Origin: a virus
Direction: 5' to 3' (one strand)
Virus record (IMG/VR): IMGVR_UViG_3300030117_001800
Span: 1-22,290 of that record
DNA length: 22,290 nt
Shown: one piece after another, positions 3,001 through 19,010 of the stretch
Numbering within the stretch: position 1 is the first letter of the stretch
How the letters are laid out: each line of letters opens with the position of its first letter
Notes under the pieces: generated by a model
Told to the model about the DNA's origin: nothing
Seen by the model: the letters and a program-made list of their open reading frames with translations, nothing else
Database searches by the model: none
Position numbers and translations under genes: made by a program

Positions 3001-6000
3001 ACCTATCTCATGTTCTATCATACCTCTTTTAGCTATTAAAGTGTTTACACCGATTACAACACTACCATCTTTTCTAAATACTATACCTGCTGGATCAAGA
3101 GGATTTAAACCTTTTTCTGCAAAACCACTATTACCTTGTTGAATTACTAACTCTACATTTTTATACTCTTTACTTAAACTTTCAAAATAACTTTTATAAG
3201 TTTTTGTTATGTGCTTTGCTATTTTATCAGGATCTTGAGTATCATATACATCGCCTTCGCTTAATATTTTTTGTTGCATGGCATCATTTATAAGCTCTGT
3301 GGTTCTTTGATGTTCTAACTCTAATTCTTTTTTACGATCTTTAAACGCTATGTTTTCAGGTAATAATGTTTCAAGATCTCTGTAATCGTTTTCTATTCTA
3401 CGTAAAGACGCGTGTCCGTTGTGTATTATATTATCAAGTTGAGCGGTTGAAGTTAAAGAGTTTGCATAAGGATTTTTAATTACTTCACCAGTTATGCTTT
3501 TTATTCTAAGCATACTACCAAAAATCATATTACCTATAAACTCTCTATCACCTTGATAACTAGGAAAAGCGTTTTCTAATTGTTTAACAAATGTTTCTCC
3601 ACCGTTAAGAGTTTTCCATCCGCCTTCTAAATAACCTGCTCCCACAGTAGAAGTAGCAAAAGCTAAACCAGAATATGGAACACCTATAACTGTGTTTAAC
3701 CTTCTTGATCCAGTTCCTAATCCTTTAGTTAAACCTGTTCCAAATCTACCAAAAGCACCTCCAAAGGCATAAAAAGCAGTACCACCACCAACTTTATAAT
3801 CTTCTTCAAAAACAGTTTTCATTTTAAATTCTTCACCAATAATACCAAAACCGTACTTATATAGATTAGCGTATTTGTTTAATTCAACTGTATAACCTGC
3901 TTTATTAGCTGCTTTTAAAGCTAATGGTCCAGATAAACTTGTTAAATTATTTGTTTCTTTAAATTTTTTAATTTCAGCAGCTGAAACTCTAACTTTATTA
4001 TTAGGACCTGTTCCTCTTACAGTTTTAAATAAAGTATAATTTTTACCACCTATATTAAACGCTCTTTGAACACTACCAACACCTTTACCAACTAGAGCAA
4101 ATTTAGCAAGGTCTTCTGTAAACTCAAGAGGCATTTGATAACCGTATTCATAAAGCATACTTTTTTGTAAAGTACCTATTGCATTTTTGTTTATAATACC
4201 TTCATTACCTTTAACCCAGTCATATGTATCAAATTGAAGCTGTAGTTTGTTATTAAAATCTGATTTAAGATTCATACCGGCTTTTTCAGCAGCTTCTACG
4301 CTCCAAGTATTAGCAATGTAATTACCACCAGCTTTTATAGCGTCTATTGTTTCTGATCCAAATTTTTTATTATAACTTCTAGGATCTAATTGTAAGTCTG
4401 TTAAAGCCATTAATACTTTAAAATCAGACATGTTTTGTTTTCTAAAATTAGCATACTGACTAACATAAGTATAAAGCTGAGCTTCAGACATATCATCAGT
4501 GCTTAACACTTCATCTTCTTTACCGTAAGCAGCTGGATTTAAAAATGAAAGATAATATTTAGCATCTTCTATTATGTTTCTTTCTGAAGGATTAAATATA
4601 GTGTTTCTATGTTTTGCTAAATCAGATAATCTAACTTTTAATGTAACAATGCTAGTTTCTGTAGGATCTTCAGGTTTATATTCTTCTTTAAAATCTGTAT
4701 ATTCTAAATCTTCTATTATTTTTTTATAGCCTCTACTATCAGATCTAAGTCCTTTTAATGTTATAAAATCATCACCTATTTTATTAGAAGCAGCTATATT
4801 AAATGCTATCTCATCAGTTTTGTCAGTTAAATAATCTTTTATTGATGATTTATCTTTTAATTCATCAGGAACTAAGCTGCTAAATTTATTAGCGCTTGTC
4901 ATTAAATCATCATTATTAATAGTATCTTCGTCTTCATCTACAGCAAGACCGTCTACAAAATCACCATCTAAAGTAAACGCAGGTTTTAAAGCGTTTTCTT
5001 TATTAAAATTTAAACCTGTTAAAAAAGAACCGTGCCAACCTTTAGAATTACCTATTACATTTAATAAATTATTTCTTTGTTGTTGCAGCTTTTCTATTTG
5101 ACTAGATTTATCATCATCAATTATAGTGCCTGTTCTTAAACCATAAGAAGGTTGAGACATTTCATTTTTTAAAGAATCTATTTGTTTATTTATTTCTGAT
5201 AACTTTATTTCATTATCAGTATAATTAATTTTTCTATAATCATTTTTAATATTTATAGCATCATCTTCTTCTCTAACTGATTCTCTTTTTATTCTTTGTT
5301 TTCTATTAAAATCTTCTAAATAATTATCATGGTATCTTTTACCTATTTTCTCAAACTCATCATCAAAATAATATTCTAAATTAGTACCGTCTACGTTTAA
5401 TTCTTTTTTTAATCTTTTTAACTGATCATCATAATTAAAATCACCAACAGATCTATCTTTTTGATCTTTTTTTGTACCTGAACCACCTTTATAATCTGGT
5501 AAAAAATTAGCATAAGTTTGAACTTGGCCGTCTTTAAATCTTATATCATTTTTAAAAAAATCTTCTATAGAGTTATCAATTGATTTTTTTCTTTCACTAT
5601 ATATTTTTCTTTCATCAGAATCAAAAGTTTTATCTGACATCCAGTCATTCATTGCATTAATTCCTTCTTCATTTTTTTGAAATTTACCAACAAATCCTTT
5701 AGGAGATCTAACAGTAATTGCATCAATCATGTTAGGTTCTGGATTATATTCAAAAACAAAACCGTCTTCGTTATATTTTTTGCTTAAATTATTTACAATA
5801 ACATTAAAAGACTCATCTACTTGATCAGTTACACCAAACCTACCAAGAAAACTATCTTTTTTTACAATTTTACTAGGTAATGAAACTATAGAATCTATTT
5901 GAGTTTTATTTAAAGGTTCAAATATATATTCTGGCTCTTCTTTTTTTGGCGCTAATATAAACTGATCTTTTTCTGGAGCCTGTTCAGGTCCGAAAACTTC

Positions 6001-14271: not shown

Positions 14272-14982
14272 TTATTGATTTTCAAGTTGTATTTTTTGAT
14301 TTGTTTCCGCCGAAGCGCTTTGTATAACGCTAGGATCTTTTATAACTATACCAACATATCTTAATATTTCTAATACTAAATCAACTTCGCTTGATGGGTG
14401 TAATGTAAAATCTACAAAACTAACACCTGAAGCACCTGTGCTATCAAATGTTAAAGCTCCGTTAGAATCAACTGTGCTAGCCCAAACAGGATCTGCTGGT
14501 ACTGATACATAGTCTACATCAATAGAAGTTAACGTGCTAGGATTTACTGTTATAGTACTACCTGTTACATAATATATTGGAAACGTTGTTGATGGTGCAG
14601 TTAATGGTGAAGATAATAAAAAGCTTAGTTTTGATTTTTCTATTCTTTCTATGTTTGTTAATCTGCTATCTGCAGATACATTTATAATATTGTAAAATGT
14701 AGGTAAAGTTCCTACACCACTTGTTAATGTTACGCTTGCATTAGCGTAAAATGGATCTATACGATCTTGTATTTTTTTAGGTATATCAGCATATCCTTGT
14801 CCACCTCTACCAAAAGATTCTTTAGTTATAGCTCTAGTGTAATCATGAAAAGCTTTGTCTAGTAAATCAAGTTGAGCTTGAGAACCTATTTTAGAAAACT
14901 CATCTGGTGTTAAAAAACCTCTGGACTCTTTGTTAAGTATAGCTAATACTTTCCTATATACTTTATCTACTGATATTGCCAT
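14272..14982 (-). CDS. Head-tail connector / ring-type protein (236 residues from the internal ATG)
   Basis: I choose the ATG at 14980-14982, giving MAISVDKVYRKVLAIL, rather than the GTG at 15001-15003 that adds MIIIKYK. The ATG form matches the N-terminus usual in this family, and the GTG lies inside the stem of a strong hairpin. The helical N-terminal block (VDKVYRKVLAILNKESRG, then FLTPDEFSKIGSQAQLDLLD, residues ~5-45) is familiar from crAss-like and uncultured marine phages, where the gene precedes the 391-residue-type structural gene and the muzzle gene. The middle is beta-rich with many Thr and Ser. The C-terminus, EVDLVLEILRYVGIVIKDPS, is helical. A connector or tail-ring role is inferred from family recognition and gene order. 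Confidence 0.8.
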   Translation of the reverse strand: MAISVDKVYRKVLAILNKESRGFLTPDEFSKIGSQAQLDLLDKAFHDYTRAITKESFGRGGQGYADIPKKIQDRIDPFYANASVTLTSGVGTLPTFYNIINVSADSRLTNIERIEKSKLSFLLSSPLTAPSTTFPIYYVTGSTITVNPSTLTSIDVDYVSVPADPVWASTVDSNGALTFDSTGASGVSFVDFTLHPSSEVDLVLEILRYVGIVIKDPSVIQSASAETNQKIQLENQ

Positions 14983-14998
14983 TTTATATTTTATTATA

Positions 14999-15027
14999 AT
15001 CACTGGCCCTAGTTAAAGGGCCGTGAT
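14999..15027. other. Strong imperfect hairpin before the 236-residue connector gene
   Basis: The arms GGCCCT (15005-15010) and AGGGCC (15017-15022) pair perfectly around the loop AGTTAA. The stem continues outward as ATCAC (14999-15003) with GTGAT (15023-15027) around one bulged T at 15004, giving 11 base pairs in all. In the transcribed (minus) direction it follows the stop of the 265-residue gene and precedes the connector ATG by about 16 bases. No U-run follows it on the minus strand, so it is not a canonical intrinsic terminator. An mRNA processing, stabilising or translation-control element is more likely. Confidence 0.6.
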
Positions 15028-15036
15028 CATTAGTTG

Positions 15037-15834
15037 TTAGTTTAACCTTTTTTGTATTGATTTGTAAACGTCAACACCTTCATCAGTTTTAAGCCAAGCA
15101 GCAAACGCGCTGTATGGGTTTTCATCAAAAGGTACTTCCATTAATTTTCTATCAGTTGCACCCCAAGTAAATCTTCTTTGATCTTGTGATAAAGTTATAA
15201 TACCCATTTCGTTAGCTTTAATAGCTAAATTTCTAAGTACAACATTTTCATCATTTACAAGATCTAAAAATAAAACAGGGTTTTGTCTTGCAAATAAATA
15301 CAAATCTCTTTTTATTTCAGCTGAACTCATTTTATCAACAGTAGAACCTAGTTCAACTCTTAATATAGCTTCAGCTTGATCTATTTCAATTGATGTAGCA
15401 GTATTTAAAGCTTGCATTTCAGTTTCAATATCAATTAAATCTTCTTTTGCTTCTGCAACATCATCTCTTTCAGAATAAACAATACCTTTTTTAGGGTGGT
15501 ATAAAGATAAAAGTTTTTGTAATGGTTGATTCTGTTTTGGCACAAACAACACACCGTCTTCAAATATAACGTGATCTAACATTACGTTAGTATCTTGCTC
15601 ATCTACAAATATAGATTTTTGATTACTTGAATATCTTATTTCTCTATTAACACCTTTATTATCGTCCCACCATAATAATGGTTTTTTTCTTGTTGATTTA
15701 GACTGTAAAACATAAGTTAGTGGTCTACCGTCTTGCGTTAGATAATATTGTCTATCTTTCATCTCCCATCTTGGAGATGTGTCTTTTACTTGTACTGGTT
15801 CTTCTACCAATACTTCTTTTTTCTTTTTTGCCAT
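15037..15834 (-). CDS. Unrecognised 265-residue virion-region protein
   Basis: No named domain is recognised. The start is a Lys-rich, disordered-looking segment (MAKKKKEVLVEEPVQVKD), followed by a compact aromatic and basic region with WEMKDRQYYLTQDGRPLTYV and KKPLLWWDDNKGVNREIRYS. A Glu/Asp-rich helical stretch spans about residues 120-160. The C-terminal part contains a run of helices (AEIKRDLYLFARQNPVLFLD) and ends VYKSIQKRLN. The gene lies between the small post-capsid gene and the connector genes, and has gaps with hairpins on both sides (15861-15896 and 14999-15027). Proteins of this general type occur at this place in uncultured marine crAss-like phages, as far as I recall, so a head or connector accessory role is a guess from position. 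Confidence 0.8.
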   Translation of the reverse strand: MAKKKKEVLVEEPVQVKDTSPRWEMKDRQYYLTQDGRPLTYVLQSKSTRKKPLLWWDDNKGVNREIRYSSNQKSIFVDEQDTNVMLDHVIFEDGVLFVPKQNQPLQKLLSLYHPKKGIVYSERDDVAEAKEDLIDIETEMQALNTATSIEIDQAEAILRVELGSTVDKMSSAEIKRDLYLFARQNPVLFLDLVNDENVVLRNLAIKANEMGIITLSQDQRRFTWGATDRKLMEVPFDENPYSAFAAWLKTDEGVDVYKSIQKRLN

Positions 15835-15860
15835 AATATAATATAATTAAATAGTTAAAA

Positions 15861-15896
15861 TAAACCTAAAGGCGTCATAAAGACGCCTTTGGTTTA
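15861..15896 (-). terminator. Probable intrinsic terminator after the 108-residue gene
   Basis: TAAACC-T-AAAGGCGTC (15861-15876) pairs with GACGCCTTTGGTTTA (15882-15896): 15 base pairs with one bulged T and a 5-base loop (ATAAA). Read on the minus strand, the hairpin lies 14 bases after the TAA TAA end of the 108-residue gene and its lower stem runs into a U-rich TTTATTTTAA tract. Polarity and position fit termination or 3'-end stabilisation of the capsid/108-residue transcript. It could also be partial, allowing read-through to the downstream tail genes. Confidence 0.7.
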
Positions 15897-15909
15897 ATAT
15901 AAATTGTTA

Positions 15910-16236
15910 TTAAGCATCAAGCGCTATTGCACAAGCTGTAATGTCAGAGTCAACATAAACTCCATTAACATCGTCAGCAACTACAATATAACCGTTAGGC
16001 TTAAAACTGTTTCCACTAATTGCTTCTGCAATTGATTTGAAAACTTTTAGCTCTTGATCAGCTGTTACAGTTAAAGTAACAACATCAACACTACCAGCTT
16101 GTCCATCACCAAGGCTACCTGGCGCAAATTTAATAAGTAAAGTTGCGTCACTAGCTACAGTTAAAGACTGAATTTTTGAAACTGGGTACATTGCCGCGTC
16201 ATCAGCCGCGTCAATAAAAATTAAAAATTTTTCCAT
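15910..16236 (-). CDS. Small post-capsid protein, possible capsid decoration/auxiliary protein
   Basis: The 108-residue product begins MEKFLIFIDAADDAAMYPVS and looks like a small compact beta domain: alternating hydrophobic strands (SLTVASDATLLIKFAP, VDVVTLTVTADQELKVF, GYIVVADDVNGVYVD) with one likely helix (KVFKSIAEAISG). It is acidic and ends with ALDA. There is no signal peptide or membrane segment. It is the first gene after the major capsid gene and has its own leader and 3' hairpin; two stop codons (TAA TAA) end it. Small genes beside the capsid gene often encode capsid cementing or auxiliary proteins, which is the basis for the suggestion. I do not recognise the family, so this is inference from context. 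Confidence 0.8.
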   Translation of the reverse strand: MEKFLIFIDAADDAAMYPVSKIQSLTVASDATLLIKFAPGSLGDGQAGSVDVVTLTVTADQELKVFKSIAEAISGNSFKPNGYIVVADDVNGVYVDSDITACAIALDA

Positions 16237-16239
16237 GTT

Positions 16240-16255
16240 TTAAGTTTTAAGTTTA
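16240..16255 (-). promoter_or_regulatory. Tandem ACTTAAA leader before the 108-residue gene
   Basis: Read on the minus strand, the bases just before the ATG are AACTTAAAACTTAAAAC: the unit ACTTAAA is present twice in direct repeat. A similar CAACTTAAAATTAAACAAAA leader precedes the capsid gene. There is no Shine-Dalgarno sequence. An A-rich translation enhancer of the Bacteroidota type is the likeliest role; promoter function is not shown. Confidence 0.35.
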
Positions 16256-16271
16256 TAGTTTTTGGTTTATT

Positions 16272-16297
16272 ATAAGGCGGCTTTTACACCGCCTTAT
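16272..16297. terminator. Perfect GC-rich hairpin after the capsid gene
   Basis: ATAAGGCGG (16272-16280) and CCGCCTTAT (16289-16297) form a perfect 9-bp stem around CTTTTACA. It lies 12 bases after the capsid gene stop (TAG at 16310-16312) in the minus direction. The seven-T run (16297-16303) is on the plus strand, so by the usual rule the structure would terminate plus-strand transcription; on the minus strand an A-run precedes it and AATAAACC follows. It may stabilise the 3' end of capsid mRNA or act as a weak terminator in the minus direction. Confidence 0.55.
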
Positions 16298-16309
16298 TTT
16301 TTTAATCTA

Positions 16310-17740
16310 CTATGATTCTTTTAATAACACGAAGTTATTAGCAGCTTGTACAACTAAACATCTTTCAGATAAATAGTGTACCTCCATAATATCGTCGCCG
16401 ATATATGATGCACCACCAACAGATCCTGTTACCCAAGACTTCATTCTTCTATCATCAGTTTGAGAAGCTCTATATCTTACGTGTAAGAAAGGTCTCTTGA
16501 TATTTCTACCTAAGTTTTCATCATATACAGATGATACACCAGCAGGAATTAAAATTCCAGAAATATCTCCAAAACCACCTCTACCAGTAGCATCGTTTAA
16601 GTATCTCCAGTCAGACTTATAGAAGTCATAAGAACCTCTTCTTAGTCCTGAGAAACCTAAGTTTAATGCCATATCAGCAGAATTTTCAAATACTCCAAAT
16701 GAAGCACCGCCACCGTAGTTAGCGTTTAATCCAGCCATCATGTCATCAAAAGTTAATGCTAAATCTCTGTTTACGTAAAGGATGTTTTCTTCAATAGCAC
16801 CTTGCTTATCAAGATTTTTAAGTACTAAATCAAAATCAGCTAAAGAAGCTAAATCTTCAAATACATTACCTCTTGTTTCTACTGCTTGGAATAAACCTTC
16901 AGTACCGAAGTTTTCACCAGCAATACCCATATCAGTATCAGCAGTTGAAGAACCAGGAACACCTTTTACAGATTCAATCATAGACATTTCTAAGTAATCT
17001 TCAAATCTTAATCTAGTTTCACTAGCAGATTTCATATACCAAGAAAAACCTGATTGTCCAGACTCATCAATTGTTTCAACCCAACCGATTTGAGCAGTAT
17101 CAGAACCAGAAATTTTAAAGTGATCTTTAATAATAATTGGTCTATTGTCAAATTTAGTAAACTGAGGCTTAAGTTCACCTGCCATAGAAGCAGATCCTTT
17201 AGCAAACTCAGAACCAAATACGAAAACATTAACACCACCATCATTAAGCCCTGTAACGTCATCCATTGTAGCGACTTTATATGGTTTTGCTGTAATAACT
17301 TGACCAGATGTTGCAGAAACTCTACATACTACTGTAATAAGTCCAGTAGCAGCATCAGTAACAATTATAGTAGCACCTACTCTTACAGAGTTAGTATAAT
17401 CACTACCTAATGTTATTGTATTAGCACTTACATCAGCTGTAACAGTTTCGTTACCACCAGCTTTGTGTTTGTAAGCAATATGTAATCTGTTTTGCTCAGA
17501 CCATACTACTTGATCGGATTGCATAGGCATCTCTGCCCCTACCATTGCTAAAAATCCGTTGATTGTACGATTTCCGTATCTTTCGATTTCTTGTTCGTAC
17601 AACTCAGGTAGGTATTGTTGCGCCCAACCTTGGTTAGCTGTATTAGCTAAATCTAAATAGTTGTTCGCGCTTACAGTTTGAGTTGGAGAGTTAGTCAAAG
17701 AGTAACTTCCAGCTAAACCTAAAGACGTATTAAATCCCAT
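16310..17740 (-). CDS. Major capsid protein, crAss-like (HK97-type fold expected)
   Basis: The 476-residue protein forms the icosahedral shell. Residues ~50-90 hold the blocks I recognise from crAss-like capsid proteins: YEQEIERYGNRTINGFLAM, VGAEMPMQSDQVVWSEQN and RLHIAYKH. A Thr/Val/Asn-rich beta insertion follows at about 95-160. Further typical stretches are FDNRPIIIKDHFKISGSDTA, DDMMAGLNANYGGGASFG and, near the C-terminus, HVRYRASQTDDRRMKSWVTG and LSERCLVVQAANNFVL. Length and order fit the family; HK97-like folding is known for it. The gene follows the acidic scaffold-like gene by 24 bases and has a strong hairpin after its stop, fitting high expression. It is the only gene here that ends in TAG. 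Confidence 0.9.
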   Translation of the reverse strand: MGFNTSLGLAGSYSLTNSPTQTVSANNYLDLANTANQGWAQQYLPELYEQEIERYGNRTINGFLAMVGAEMPMQSDQVVWSEQNRLHIAYKHKAGGNETVTADVSANTITLGSDYTNSVRVGATIIVTDAATGLITVVCRVSATSGQVITAKPYKVATMDDVTGLNDGGVNVFVFGSEFAKGSASMAGELKPQFTKFDNRPIIIKDHFKISGSDTAQIGWVETIDESGQSGFSWYMKSASETRLRFEDYLEMSMIESVKGVPGSSTADTDMGIAGENFGTEGLFQAVETRGNVFEDLASLADFDLVLKNLDKQGAIEENILYVNRDLALTFDDMMAGLNANYGGGASFGVFENSADMALNLGFSGLRRGSYDFYKSDWRYLNDATGRGGFGDISGILIPAGVSSVYDENLGRNIKRPFLHVRYRASQTDDRRMKSWVTGSVGGASYIGDDIMEVHYLSERCLVVQAANNFVLLKES

Positions 17741-17764: not shown

Positions 17765-18985
17765 TTATTTTCTAATTTTAAATTTCAAACTAGAACTATC
17801 ATCACCACTTAATACTCTAAACTTTCTACCACCAGCATCAACAACAGGAGCAGCAGTTCTTGGAGACATATCAATGTTTTTAGCACTCATACTTGATTCT
17901 CTTATAGCATCTGCTTTACCTTGATCGTAAAAATGTTTAACAATTTTATCGATGTTTTTACCAGCATACAAAGCCTTGTGATACCCTTTTGCATCTTGCA
18001 TCATATTCTTATCGTCAAGAAACTCTCTTACGAAATTAGATATATCGCTTTGATACTCTTTAACACCTTGAACATCTTTAATATTGTATCTATAAGTTTT
18101 TTCTCCAACGTTAAAGTCAAAACCTTTGAAATTATTATTGAATACAGAGTCAGTAGATTTTTGGAAACGTTCTAGCTGTTGTTTTTGGATCTCACTATTA
18201 GTGGTTTGTTCTTGTTTGTATTTATTGTAAAATTCTACTGCCTCTTTCTGCTCGCTGGTCAACTTAGAACCCAACTTGACTTCTTTGTAATACTGATCCT
18301 TCAGGCCAGTAAGATGCTTTCGAGCTTTTACAATTTCTTCTTTGAAAGCCAATTTTTTCTTTTTAATATCTCTTGGCTCATCAAGTTCCTCATCAAACTG
18401 AAACGTATCTTCAATTAAGAAGTTTATTTCTTCCATGTTTAAATGAGGTTTAGTATTTTTATAATATTCTAATAACAAAGCGTTATCGTCTATATTAGAA
18501 TAATCCGCGTTTAATCTAGTGTAATCTTCTAGAGTTCCACCTGTATCTTCCATAAACTTAACTAAATCTTTTAAGTTTTCTGGTACAACCACTTGCGGCT
18601 CAGGTTGTGTTTGCGTTACAGGTTCTTCAATTTTTTCTTCTACAACTTCTTGTTGTACATCTTCTTCTTTTACCTCTTCAAGAACTACCTCTTCTTCTTC
18701 TTTAACTTCTTCGGTAGACTCTTTAGTTTCTTCTTGCTTGTTTTCTTCAGAAACTTCTTTGCTAGCGTCGGATTCGTCGCGAACAGGTATTTCATCTGTG
18801 CTTTGCTCTTGAACGGGCTCATTTTTATTTTTTAATTTAATTTTAAAAGTACCTTCTTCGTTATCTAGCATTTTAGCTTTAACTTTAGGCTCTTCTTGTT
18901 TTTGTTCTTCATTAGAAGGTGTTACAGATGTTTCTTCTGTTTTTACTTCTTGAATAACATTTTCTTGTTTTTCAGTGTTTTCCAT
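17765..18985 (-). CDS. Acidic scaffold-like capsid assembly protein
   Basis: The 406-residue product lies between portal and major capsid genes, the usual place for a scaffolding protein. Its first ~130 residues are extremely rich in Glu, Val, Lys and Gln (for example EEVKEEEEVVLEEVKEEDVQ) and are probably disordered. The middle (about 135-300) is charged and helical, with likely coiled coil. The C-terminus is basic and ends SLKFKIRK, like the capsid-binding tails of phage scaffolds. A related basic-hydrophobic stretch, GTFKIKLKNK, occurs near the N-terminus (residues ~45-54). No protease motif was seen. Scaffold function is inferred from position and composition; an internal head protein is the main alternative. 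Confidence 0.85.
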   Translation of the reverse strand: MENTEKQENVIQEVKTEETSVTPSNEEQKQEEPKVKAKMLDNEEGTFKIKLKNKNEPVQEQSTDEIPVRDESDASKEVSEENKQEETKESTEEVKEEEEVVLEEVKEEDVQQEVVEEKIEEPVTQTQPEPQVVVPENLKDLVKFMEDTGGTLEDYTRLNADYSNIDDNALLLEYYKNTKPHLNMEEINFLIEDTFQFDEELDEPRDIKKKKLAFKEEIVKARKHLTGLKDQYYKEVKLGSKLTSEQKEAVEFYNKYKQEQTTNSEIQKQQLERFQKSTDSVFNNNFKGFDFNVGEKTYRYNIKDVQGVKEYQSDISNFVREFLDDKNMMQDAKGYHKALYAGKNIDKIVKHFYDQGKADAIRESSMSAKNIDMSPRTAAPVVDAGGRKFRVLSGDDSSSLKFKIRK

Positions 18986-18986
18986 G

Positions 18987-19000
18987 ATATAATATTATAT
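18987..19000. repeat. AT-only perfect palindrome before the scaffold-like gene
   Basis: ATATAATATTATAT is a 14-base perfect palindrome directly before the scaffold-like ATG, in the 25-base gap after the portal stop. It is pure A/T in an AT-rich genome, so it may be chance or simply an unstructured translation leader. A related ATAATATAATAT stretch precedes the 265-residue gene (15833-15846). Confidence 0.3.
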
Positions 19001-19010
19001 AATTAATAAA

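Follow-up and report, generated by a model that had tools for sequence, protein, structure and literature searches.

What the long gaps after the major capsid gene do is the question raised by the capsid module of a marine bacterial virus, IMG/VR record IMGVR_UViG_3300030117_001800, which we analyzed over its whole length of 22,290 bases (hereafter the window). The capsid-module genes all lie on the minus strand, and three consecutive gaps after the capsid gene each hold a stable, G+C-rich stem-loop, numbered hairpins 1 to 3 in the sense direction. The initial annotation had proposed stepwise partial termination or RNA processing at the three, setting protein ratios. From sequence comparison, we tentatively read the gaps instead as boundaries of late transcription units, where a terminator-like hairpin would be followed by re-initiation at the next gene; we regard this as quite possible, short of likely. 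The gaps, the hairpins, their conserved position, the covariation of their stems, the TAnnTTTG boxes of annotated relatives, the elements found in the gaps of the window clade, and the co-occurrence of a sigma factor gene together suggest termination, promoter activity, and a link between the sigma factor and the elements.

The long gaps of the capsid module and their hairpins

In the sense direction, the module runs from terminase and portal through a scaffold-like protein of 406 amino acids (aa) and the capsid protein (476 aa) to proteins of 108, 265, 236, 391, and 1413 aa. Successive gaps from the terminase to a 2010-aa open reading frame (ORF) are 2, 25, 24, 73, 75, 54, 3, 3, 2, 1, and 9 nucleotides (nt). 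The pattern described in the initial annotation is correct: a hairpin is present in every one of the long gaps (73, 75, and 54 nt), and the remaining module junctions are 1 to 25 nt. The hairpins and the genes around them are listed here.

16272..16297, minus strand: hairpin 1, capsid/108-aa junction; 10 pairs, −16.3 kcal/mol, z −4.9
15861..15896, minus strand: hairpin 2, 5′ of the 265-aa gene; 15 pairs, −21.2 kcal/mol, z −6.1
14996..15030, minus strand: hairpin 3, 265-aa/236-aa junction; 14 pairs, −21.2 kcal/mol, z −7.3
17765..18985, minus strand: scaffold-like acidic protein, 406 aa; assigned from position, no family match
16310..17740, minus strand: major capsid protein, 476 aa; match to PHROG 13704 (virion structural protein), Calle_1 homologue annotated as major capsid protein
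15910..16236, minus strand: 108-aa small protein, variable accessory gene; fold without match
15037..15834, minus strand: 265-aa conserved protein, function-unassigned; fold without match
14272..14982, minus strand: 236-aa virion structural protein, opening the next tightly packed gene set; PHROG 14543

Dinucleotide shuffles of each of the three gaps never reach the stability of the hairpin (0/1000), and when the sense strand is folded in sliding 46-nt segments, hairpins 2 and 3 exceed in stability all others among the 60 segments listed, which extend from the terminase side of the module to position 14417. Hairpin 3, initially given as 14999 to 15027, is at that position and is slightly longer. 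Searches of the window returned no Rfam covariance-model match at the gathering threshold and no tRNA. The 236-aa gene starts at the ATG at 14982, which aligns with the start in relatives; a mechanical ORF call lengthens the gene to a GTG at 15003, inside hairpin 3.

Hairpins 2 and 3 are positionally conserved among relatives

We took 80 relatives from IMG/VR, the best of at least 600 matches, and counted hairpin positions in the window and these loci (L003–L082; 81 in all), restricted to genes with a placeable start and upstream room. A 46-nt segment with a folding free energy of ≤−14 kcal/mol within 95 nt 5′ of the start precedes the 265-aa gene in 67 of 75 loci and the 236-aa gene in 57 of 60, as compared with 0/53 for portal, 2/75 for scaffold, 0/79 for capsid, 0/36 for the 391-aa gene, and 0/43 for the 1413-aa gene. 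A cruder scan of the 100 nt after each stop codon (segments ≤−12 kcal/mol), which overlaps coding sequence and takes in both the window and the annotated phages described below, finds such segments after the 265-aa gene in 69/69 loci, the 108-aa gene in 13/13, and the capsid gene in 72/87; elsewhere, the counts are 36/85 (scaffold), 16/61 (terminase), 12/87 (portal), 4/62 (236-aa), 12/52 (391-aa), and 7/20 (1413-aa). Median gaps, excluding those outside −60 to 200 nt, are 76 nt from capsid to the 265-aa gene (55 loci), 76 nt from the 108-aa to the 265-aa gene (11 loci), and 56 nt from the 265-aa to the 236-aa gene (57 loci); at six other junctions the median is at most 28 nt, including 27 nt from capsid to the 108-aa gene (12 loci). 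Hairpins 2 and 3, which flank the 265-aa gene, keep their place while their sequence drifts. Hairpin 1 is lineage-specific, and the three hairpins do not form the single stepwise series first envisaged.

Covariation of the stems

Stem covariation, suggested as a check in the initial annotation, is clear at hairpin 3 and is seen at hairpin 2 in distant relatives, while remaining unconvincing there in the close clade. The hairpin 3 alignment comprises 27 sequences, hand-picked as alignable and diverse from the loci with a placed 236-aa start. Its base stem forms 91.1% standard pairs and contains 30 doubly changed cells versus 8.9 ± 2.5 after shuffling (0/500), with slid versions of the stem reaching at most 12; the covariation score is 0.501 versus 0.267 shuffled (0/500), and slid versions score at most 0.195. 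At hairpin 2, pairing amounts to 90.4% across 16 close relatives, versus 87.6% shuffled (2/500). With an imposed structure, double changes preserve pairing in 221 of 257 cases at the 265-aa site and 89 of 104 at the 236-aa site, against a chance level that we estimate at ≈0.44; these numbers derive from distinct equal-length hairpins of 50 to 95% identity, pre-selected for stability and compared in non-independent pairs. One compensated pair, found by eye, is present at hairpin 1 in L092 and its identical twin L093. Compensatory stem changes are strong at hairpin 3 and weak at hairpin 2.

Annotated relatives carry hairpins and promoter boxes at the same junctions

Among annotated Bacteroidota phages, capsid identity to the window is 46.5% in a genome assembled from Manatee Spring, 42.5% in Maribacter phage Panino, and 39.1% in Elemovirus, followed by about 37% in Cellulophaga phage phi38:1 and Calle_1 and 24.8% in the Pachyviridae phage phi13:2. 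In PMC13288928, phi38:1 proteomics designates gp067 as the putative major capsid protein; because three phi38:1 genes named there run in reverse order relative to the GenBank record, gp067 would correspond to gp093 of that record, the homologue of the window capsid. The Pervagoviridae phi38:1 and Calle_1, Elemovirus, Panino, the Pachyviridae phi13:2 and phi46:3, and the Manatee Spring genome share the gene order of the window from terminase to the 236-aa gene, some with insertions. Inspected by eye, they also have hairpins at the junctions of the window, but with U-runs, and a U-run hairpin lies 3′ of the capsid gene in all eight annotated relatives (L083–L090).

TAnnTTTG is the Bacteroidota sigma-A promoter box (PMC9723704 and PMC6847099). 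In the five annotated records examined, it is found 5′ of the scaffold gene in 5/5, 5′ of the 265-aa gene in 2/5 (Manatee and Elemovirus), and 5′ of the 236-aa gene in 5/5, where it follows the inserted genes in Panino and phi13:2; none of four scaffold-capsid gaps of at least 15 nt contains it. Summed over five capsid-region loci, gaps of at least 40 nt have the box in 16/34 cases on the sense strand and 0/34 on the antisense strand. In the remainder of phi38:1 (L111), the corresponding numbers are 4/27 and 1/27, with 0/40 and 5/40 in shorter gaps. Genome-wide, one strand of the Elemovirus and Manatee records carries 63 and 73 boxes, respectively, versus 37 and 38 matches to a reversed-pattern control. 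As read from these sequences, the hairpin and box of the annotated relatives are, in anatomy, a terminator-promoter boundary.

These findings bear on a T7-like stepwise attenuation, in which a single upstream late promoter would be followed by leaky terminators after the capsid and 265-aa genes, with no restart. The only phage terminator of T7 follows capsid gene 10, with genes 11 and 12 expressed only via read-through (PMC5592923), and hairpin 2 has a U-rich tail. We nonetheless consider pure attenuation unlikely here and prefer re-initiation, because relatives have promoter boxes in these gaps; the conserved elements in the gaps of the window clade and the lack of a U-tail on hairpin 3 in most loci point the same way. 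These boxes suggest that re-initiation, beyond attenuation alone, may set protein ratios. The earlier proposal of stepwise partial termination is thus retained in part, with U-run hairpins at the same junctions in annotated relatives and the kept positions of hairpins 2 and 3 in its favor, and is dropped as a single series.

The 265-aa/236-aa junction is an insertion hotspot in the annotated phages, with five small genes in Panino (L083 10333–11436), eleven genes in phi13:2 (L088 10408–13110), and eight in phi46:3 (L090 10252–12717); all but one of the genes inserted in phi13:2 and phi46:3 are on the opposite strand.

Tails and loops of the hairpins

The sense-strand tail of hairpin 2, TTTATTTT, starts at the foot of the stem, and at least five T are found in the 8 nt past the stem in 55/69 loci, versus 11/69 in the opposite direction. 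The U-run of a terminator is weakly developed at hairpin 2 and is not found at hairpins 1 and 3. Loops of the cUUCGg type, present at hairpin 2 in 24 of 69 loci, point to RNA structure.

Phage N4 has DNA hairpin promoters that are used by its virion RNA polymerase, and the hairpins here are likewise directly 5′ of genes. We consider DNA-level promoters of this kind very improbable in the window, where loops and stems vary freely among relatives and the cUUCGg loops suggest RNA. A PF00940 (T7-type RNA polymerase) profile has no match in 14 records, and the control genomes are equally matchless, which makes this search uninformative.

AT-rich and TATA elements of the window clade

The annotated phages combine U-run hairpins with the TAnnTTTG box of the host. 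In the window clade, we find a different, AT-rich element, a hairpin 3 that mostly lacks a U-tail, and, in the longest contigs, a sigma factor gene. TAnnTTTG is found in 1 of 75 scaffold upstream regions of the clade and at none of six other junctions. The AT-rich element WATWATATTATAT(T/C), in which position −1 is T or C, abuts the ATG of the scaffold-like and 265-aa genes. The elements of the window are as follows.

15835..15854, minus strand: AT-rich element ending TTTAATTATATTATATT, abutting the ATG of the 265-aa gene; putative promoter or start-site control element
18986..19005, minus strand: matching element ending TATAATATTATATC, abutting the ATG of the scaffold-like gene
14993..14998, minus strand: TATAAT at the hairpin 3 foot, its first T being 16 nt 5′ of the 236-aa ATG; putative promoter −10 element

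Within the last 40 nt before the start, TAT[AT]ATAT occurs at 69/75 scaffold and 69/74 265-aa genes, versus 5.4 and 4.1, respectively, in shuffled sequences. The 12-mer core of the element, T[AT]TTATAT[TC]ATG, has 125 matches when both strands of the capsid-region loci (870 kb) are searched, and is almost restricted to the two starts: 63 matches are at 265-aa starts and 46 at scaffold starts. One further match is on the minus strand, and the start caller left 15 without a label; 14 of these 15 resemble scaffold or 265-aa starts by context, and one (L020) is inside the portal gene. A weight matrix built from 144 training sites, which exclude the long contigs L034, L042, and L029 and include their near relatives, places the 265-aa and scaffold sites at ranks 1 and 2 in each of these three contigs; the scaffold matrix scores are 18.2, 23.0, and 22.3, and the next distinct site scores at most 14.0.

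A different arrangement is found 5′ of the 236-aa gene, where the 3′ foot of hairpin 3 continues into TTATAAT (without a U-tail in the window copy) and the TATA columns are invariant in the 27 aligned sequences. TATAA[AT]A occurs there in 27 of 59 loci, versus 2.7 in shuffled sequences and 6 on the antisense strand. The capsid junction is depleted of TATA[AT] (6/79 versus 47 shuffled), and the capsid start context has A at −3, −12, and −13; the 108-aa consensus is likewise A-rich (12 loci). An A-rich start context favors translation in Flavobacterium (PMC6847099), which lends some support to the initial suggestion that the capsid and 108-aa proteins are made in large amounts.

An extra inverted repeat, GACAATAGC...GCTATCGTC with an AT-rich spacer, is present between the hairpin and the 265-aa start, within about 75 nt 5′ of the gene, in L006, L010, L097–L099, and L108, and resembles an operator or a small mobile repeat.

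A sigma factor gene in the window clade

Matches to the PF04542 profile are found in 3 of 14 records searched, the three longest window-clade contigs in this set; none is found in the four annotated relatives searched or in seven shorter contigs (31–49 kb). The 39-kb contig of L003, a close relative of the window, has no PF04542 match, and no sigma gene is seen in the window, a 22-kb fragment too short to show one. The three proteins match sigma-70 regions 2 and 4, with just one region-2 match above the curated cut-off. A scan with the sigma protein gave 126 relatives, of which 80 were kept, and we examined 43 of the 44 on contigs longer than 51 kb (L189 was left out). All 43 sigma-bearing contigs encode the capsid and 265-aa proteins and all have the 12-mer TWTTATATYATG at the 265-aa start, which is found in none of eight genomes of annotated relatives. 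The 43 contigs contain 78 matches to this 12-mer, assigned by distance to 265-aa starts (44), the scaffold position (13), and elsewhere (21). On these counts, a reading of the 12-mer as a twice-per-contig mark of the scaffold and 265-aa genes is too strong; scaffold copies are often off by a letter or two. In a tblastn search, the sigma protein matches 22 phage records at E ≤ 0.001; none bears the name of a Cellulophaga, Flavobacterium, or Maribacter phage, and four are faecal records without annotation.

The sigma-70-like protein has 243 to 259 residues (L112 1090–1821, L113 1000–1743, and L114 1072–1851), and its gene is flanked by those of a 205- to 206-aa protein upstream and a 180- to 185-aa protein downstream.

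A tentative model of the late boundaries

In the re-initiation model, a first message encoding the scaffold, the capsid, and here the 108-aa protein would end chiefly at hairpin 2, acting as an intrinsic terminator whose U-rich tail is weak. Transcription of the 265-aa gene would restart at the promoter-like element abutting its ATG, giving a nearly leaderless message, and this short unit would end at hairpin 3 or be insulated by it; the TATAAT at the hairpin 3 foot would in turn serve as the restart site of the 236-aa gene set. Each boundary probably lets some transcripts read through, and hairpin 1 would be a recent extra boundary in a single lineage. In this clade, a phage-encoded sigma factor may read the elements, which would take the place of the host TAnnTTTG box seen in the annotated relatives. 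This anatomical model, drawn across many relatives, offers a way in which capsid, scaffold, and 265-aa protein levels could be set apart and names the sigma gene and the element as a directly testable pair. A post-capsid terminator with late promoter boundaries is of a known kind; the clade-specific element and the sigma gene are unexpected, and judged by title none of the literature found deals with terminators, or with a sigma factor, of this phage group.

A bolder version, which we regard as speculative and on balance improbable, is that a widespread clade of uncultured marine Bacteroidota phages swapped the host box at the boundaries of the capsid module for its own sigma-dependent TATA promoter fused to the start codon, with leaderless scaffold and 265-aa messages and hairpin-sealed boundaries. 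If true, a conserved late operon would have switched promoter systems, and a phage lineage could abandon the host promoter code yet retain its late operon layout.

Evidence weighing against re-initiation

A number of observations count against the re-initiation model. At hairpin 2, the tail is in modest excess over a T-rich background (0.80 versus 0.65 in 8-nt windows), and among five measures applied to the 16 close relatives, four favor a stem slid by +1 over its actual register (for covariation, 0.112 versus 0.089). Of 58 loci, 53 lack a U-tail at hairpin 3 and 5 have one (opposite direction, 18/58); this hairpin thus is not a canonical terminator in the window clade, and its role may be insulation, processing, or U-run-less termination. 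Under processing or stability control, hairpins 1 and 3 would be cleaved or would protect RNA ends and so set the stability of each segment of a single long late transcript. This would fit the long stems without U-tails that stand close 5′ of start codons (at a median of 13 nt in the case of hairpin 3), and the T7 late genes include RNase sites (PMC5592923). Annotated relatives have U-run hairpins in the same places, however, and loops vary so widely between loci that no shared nuclease motif is seen, and we judge this explanation decidedly unlikely.

The elements raise further difficulties. TAT[AT]ATAT is near-palindromic and also occurs antisense at 59/75 scaffold and 56/74 265-aa genes, and the 265-aa gene has TATAA[AT]A on the antisense strand in 69/74 loci and on the sense strand in 0/74, so that the direction of the element is not established. 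The 265-aa element of the window itself has A rather than T at −14, and TATAA[AT]A is unenriched in 72 larger gaps of the three long contigs (5 sense, 7 antisense). Just two sites stand out per contig in these three contigs, few for a dedicated sigma factor, and the co-occurrence of sigma gene and element lies within one clade, where it may reflect plain shared ancestry. The TAnnTTTG box of the relatives shows no genome-wide excess over the reversed-pattern control in phi38:1 and Panino. Finally, contact of the AT-rich element with the ATG is what would be expected of a translation element, and in Flavobacterium few messages are leaderless (5.5%; PMC9723704).

The weakest link of the re-initiation model is the nature of the AT-rich element, promoter or translation element, as contact with the ATG fits both. 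A translation-control site of the scaffold and 265-aa genes, bound for example by an assembly protein, with hairpins that merely insulate or end messages, is a possibility that we take seriously while doubting it. The element exactly adjoins the ATG, three long contigs have their two best matches at these two genes, neither strand is clearly preferred by the TATA motif, and T is found at −6 and −12 where Flavobacterium prefers A (PMC6847099). Set against this are the promoter boxes of annotated relatives in the scaffold gap and, in 2/5, the 265-aa gap, and the pyrimidine at −1 before A at +1, which suits a transcription start.

Hairpin 1 is confined to one lineage

Hairpin 1 is present in 11 of 33 loci with a 108-aa gene. 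Half of the 20 loci fetched by the 108-aa protein carry it (10/20; near-identical pairs among these loci are L092/L093, L101/L104, and L102/L103), and none of 12 other loci with the gene does (0/12), including L003 and L004 with 91% capsid identity; in these 12 the gap is 25 to 39 nt. Its presence is unrelated to capsid similarity and tracks the 108-aa protein only loosely, with identities of 69 to 98% in carriers and 55 to 84% in the noncarriers L097–L100, L105, and L108; the more distant L107 and L109 have different U-run hairpins 5′ of their 108-aa homologues. Loop and flanks are near-identical among nine aligned carriers, the window included, and hairpin 1 thus resembles a recently spread module. 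It lacks a sense-strand U-tail, and its 3′ foot continues into TATAAT, as that of hairpin 3 does, a likeness that is suggestive only. We also considered hairpin 1 as an antisense terminator and rejected this, as the plus-strand run of seven T is interrupted in 7/9 aligned carriers and is not conserved.

Comparison with T4 and T7

Late promoters of T4, TATAAATA, are read by the sigma factor gp55. The window clade resembles T4 in having a short TATA-type element without an evident −35 box and a phage-encoded sigma factor; it differs in its few strong sites, and its link between sigma factor and element is putative. In the T7 late region, genes 9 and 10 are preceded by promoters, and the leaky terminator T-phi follows capsid gene 10 (PMC5592923). 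Like T7, the window has scaffold-capsid order, a promoter-like site before the scaffold gene, a terminator-like hairpin after the capsid unit, and what would be a separate level for the next genes. Unlike T7, it has two conserved boundaries around a single 265-aa gene, promoter-like elements in the gaps, and no promoter-like element between scaffold and capsid. The hairpins may well separate successive messages, much as in T7.

The proteins encoded between the hairpins

The capsid, portal, and terminase proteins match PHROG families 13704, 6547, and 6681, respectively. The 265-aa and 108-aa proteins have no Pfam match and no PDB sequence match at E ≤ 1, and Foldseek searches of their AlphaFold models (predicted local distance difference test [pLDDT] score 83.4 and predicted template modeling [pTM] score 0.56 for the 265-aa protein; pLDDT 89.5 and pTM 0.81 for the 108-aa protein) against the PDB returned none at E ≤ 0.001. 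L107 has two copies of the 108-aa family (1668–1985 and 3001–3315), and L017 has a further small ORF of 123 aa between its 109-aa copy and the 265-aa gene (about 1239–2017).

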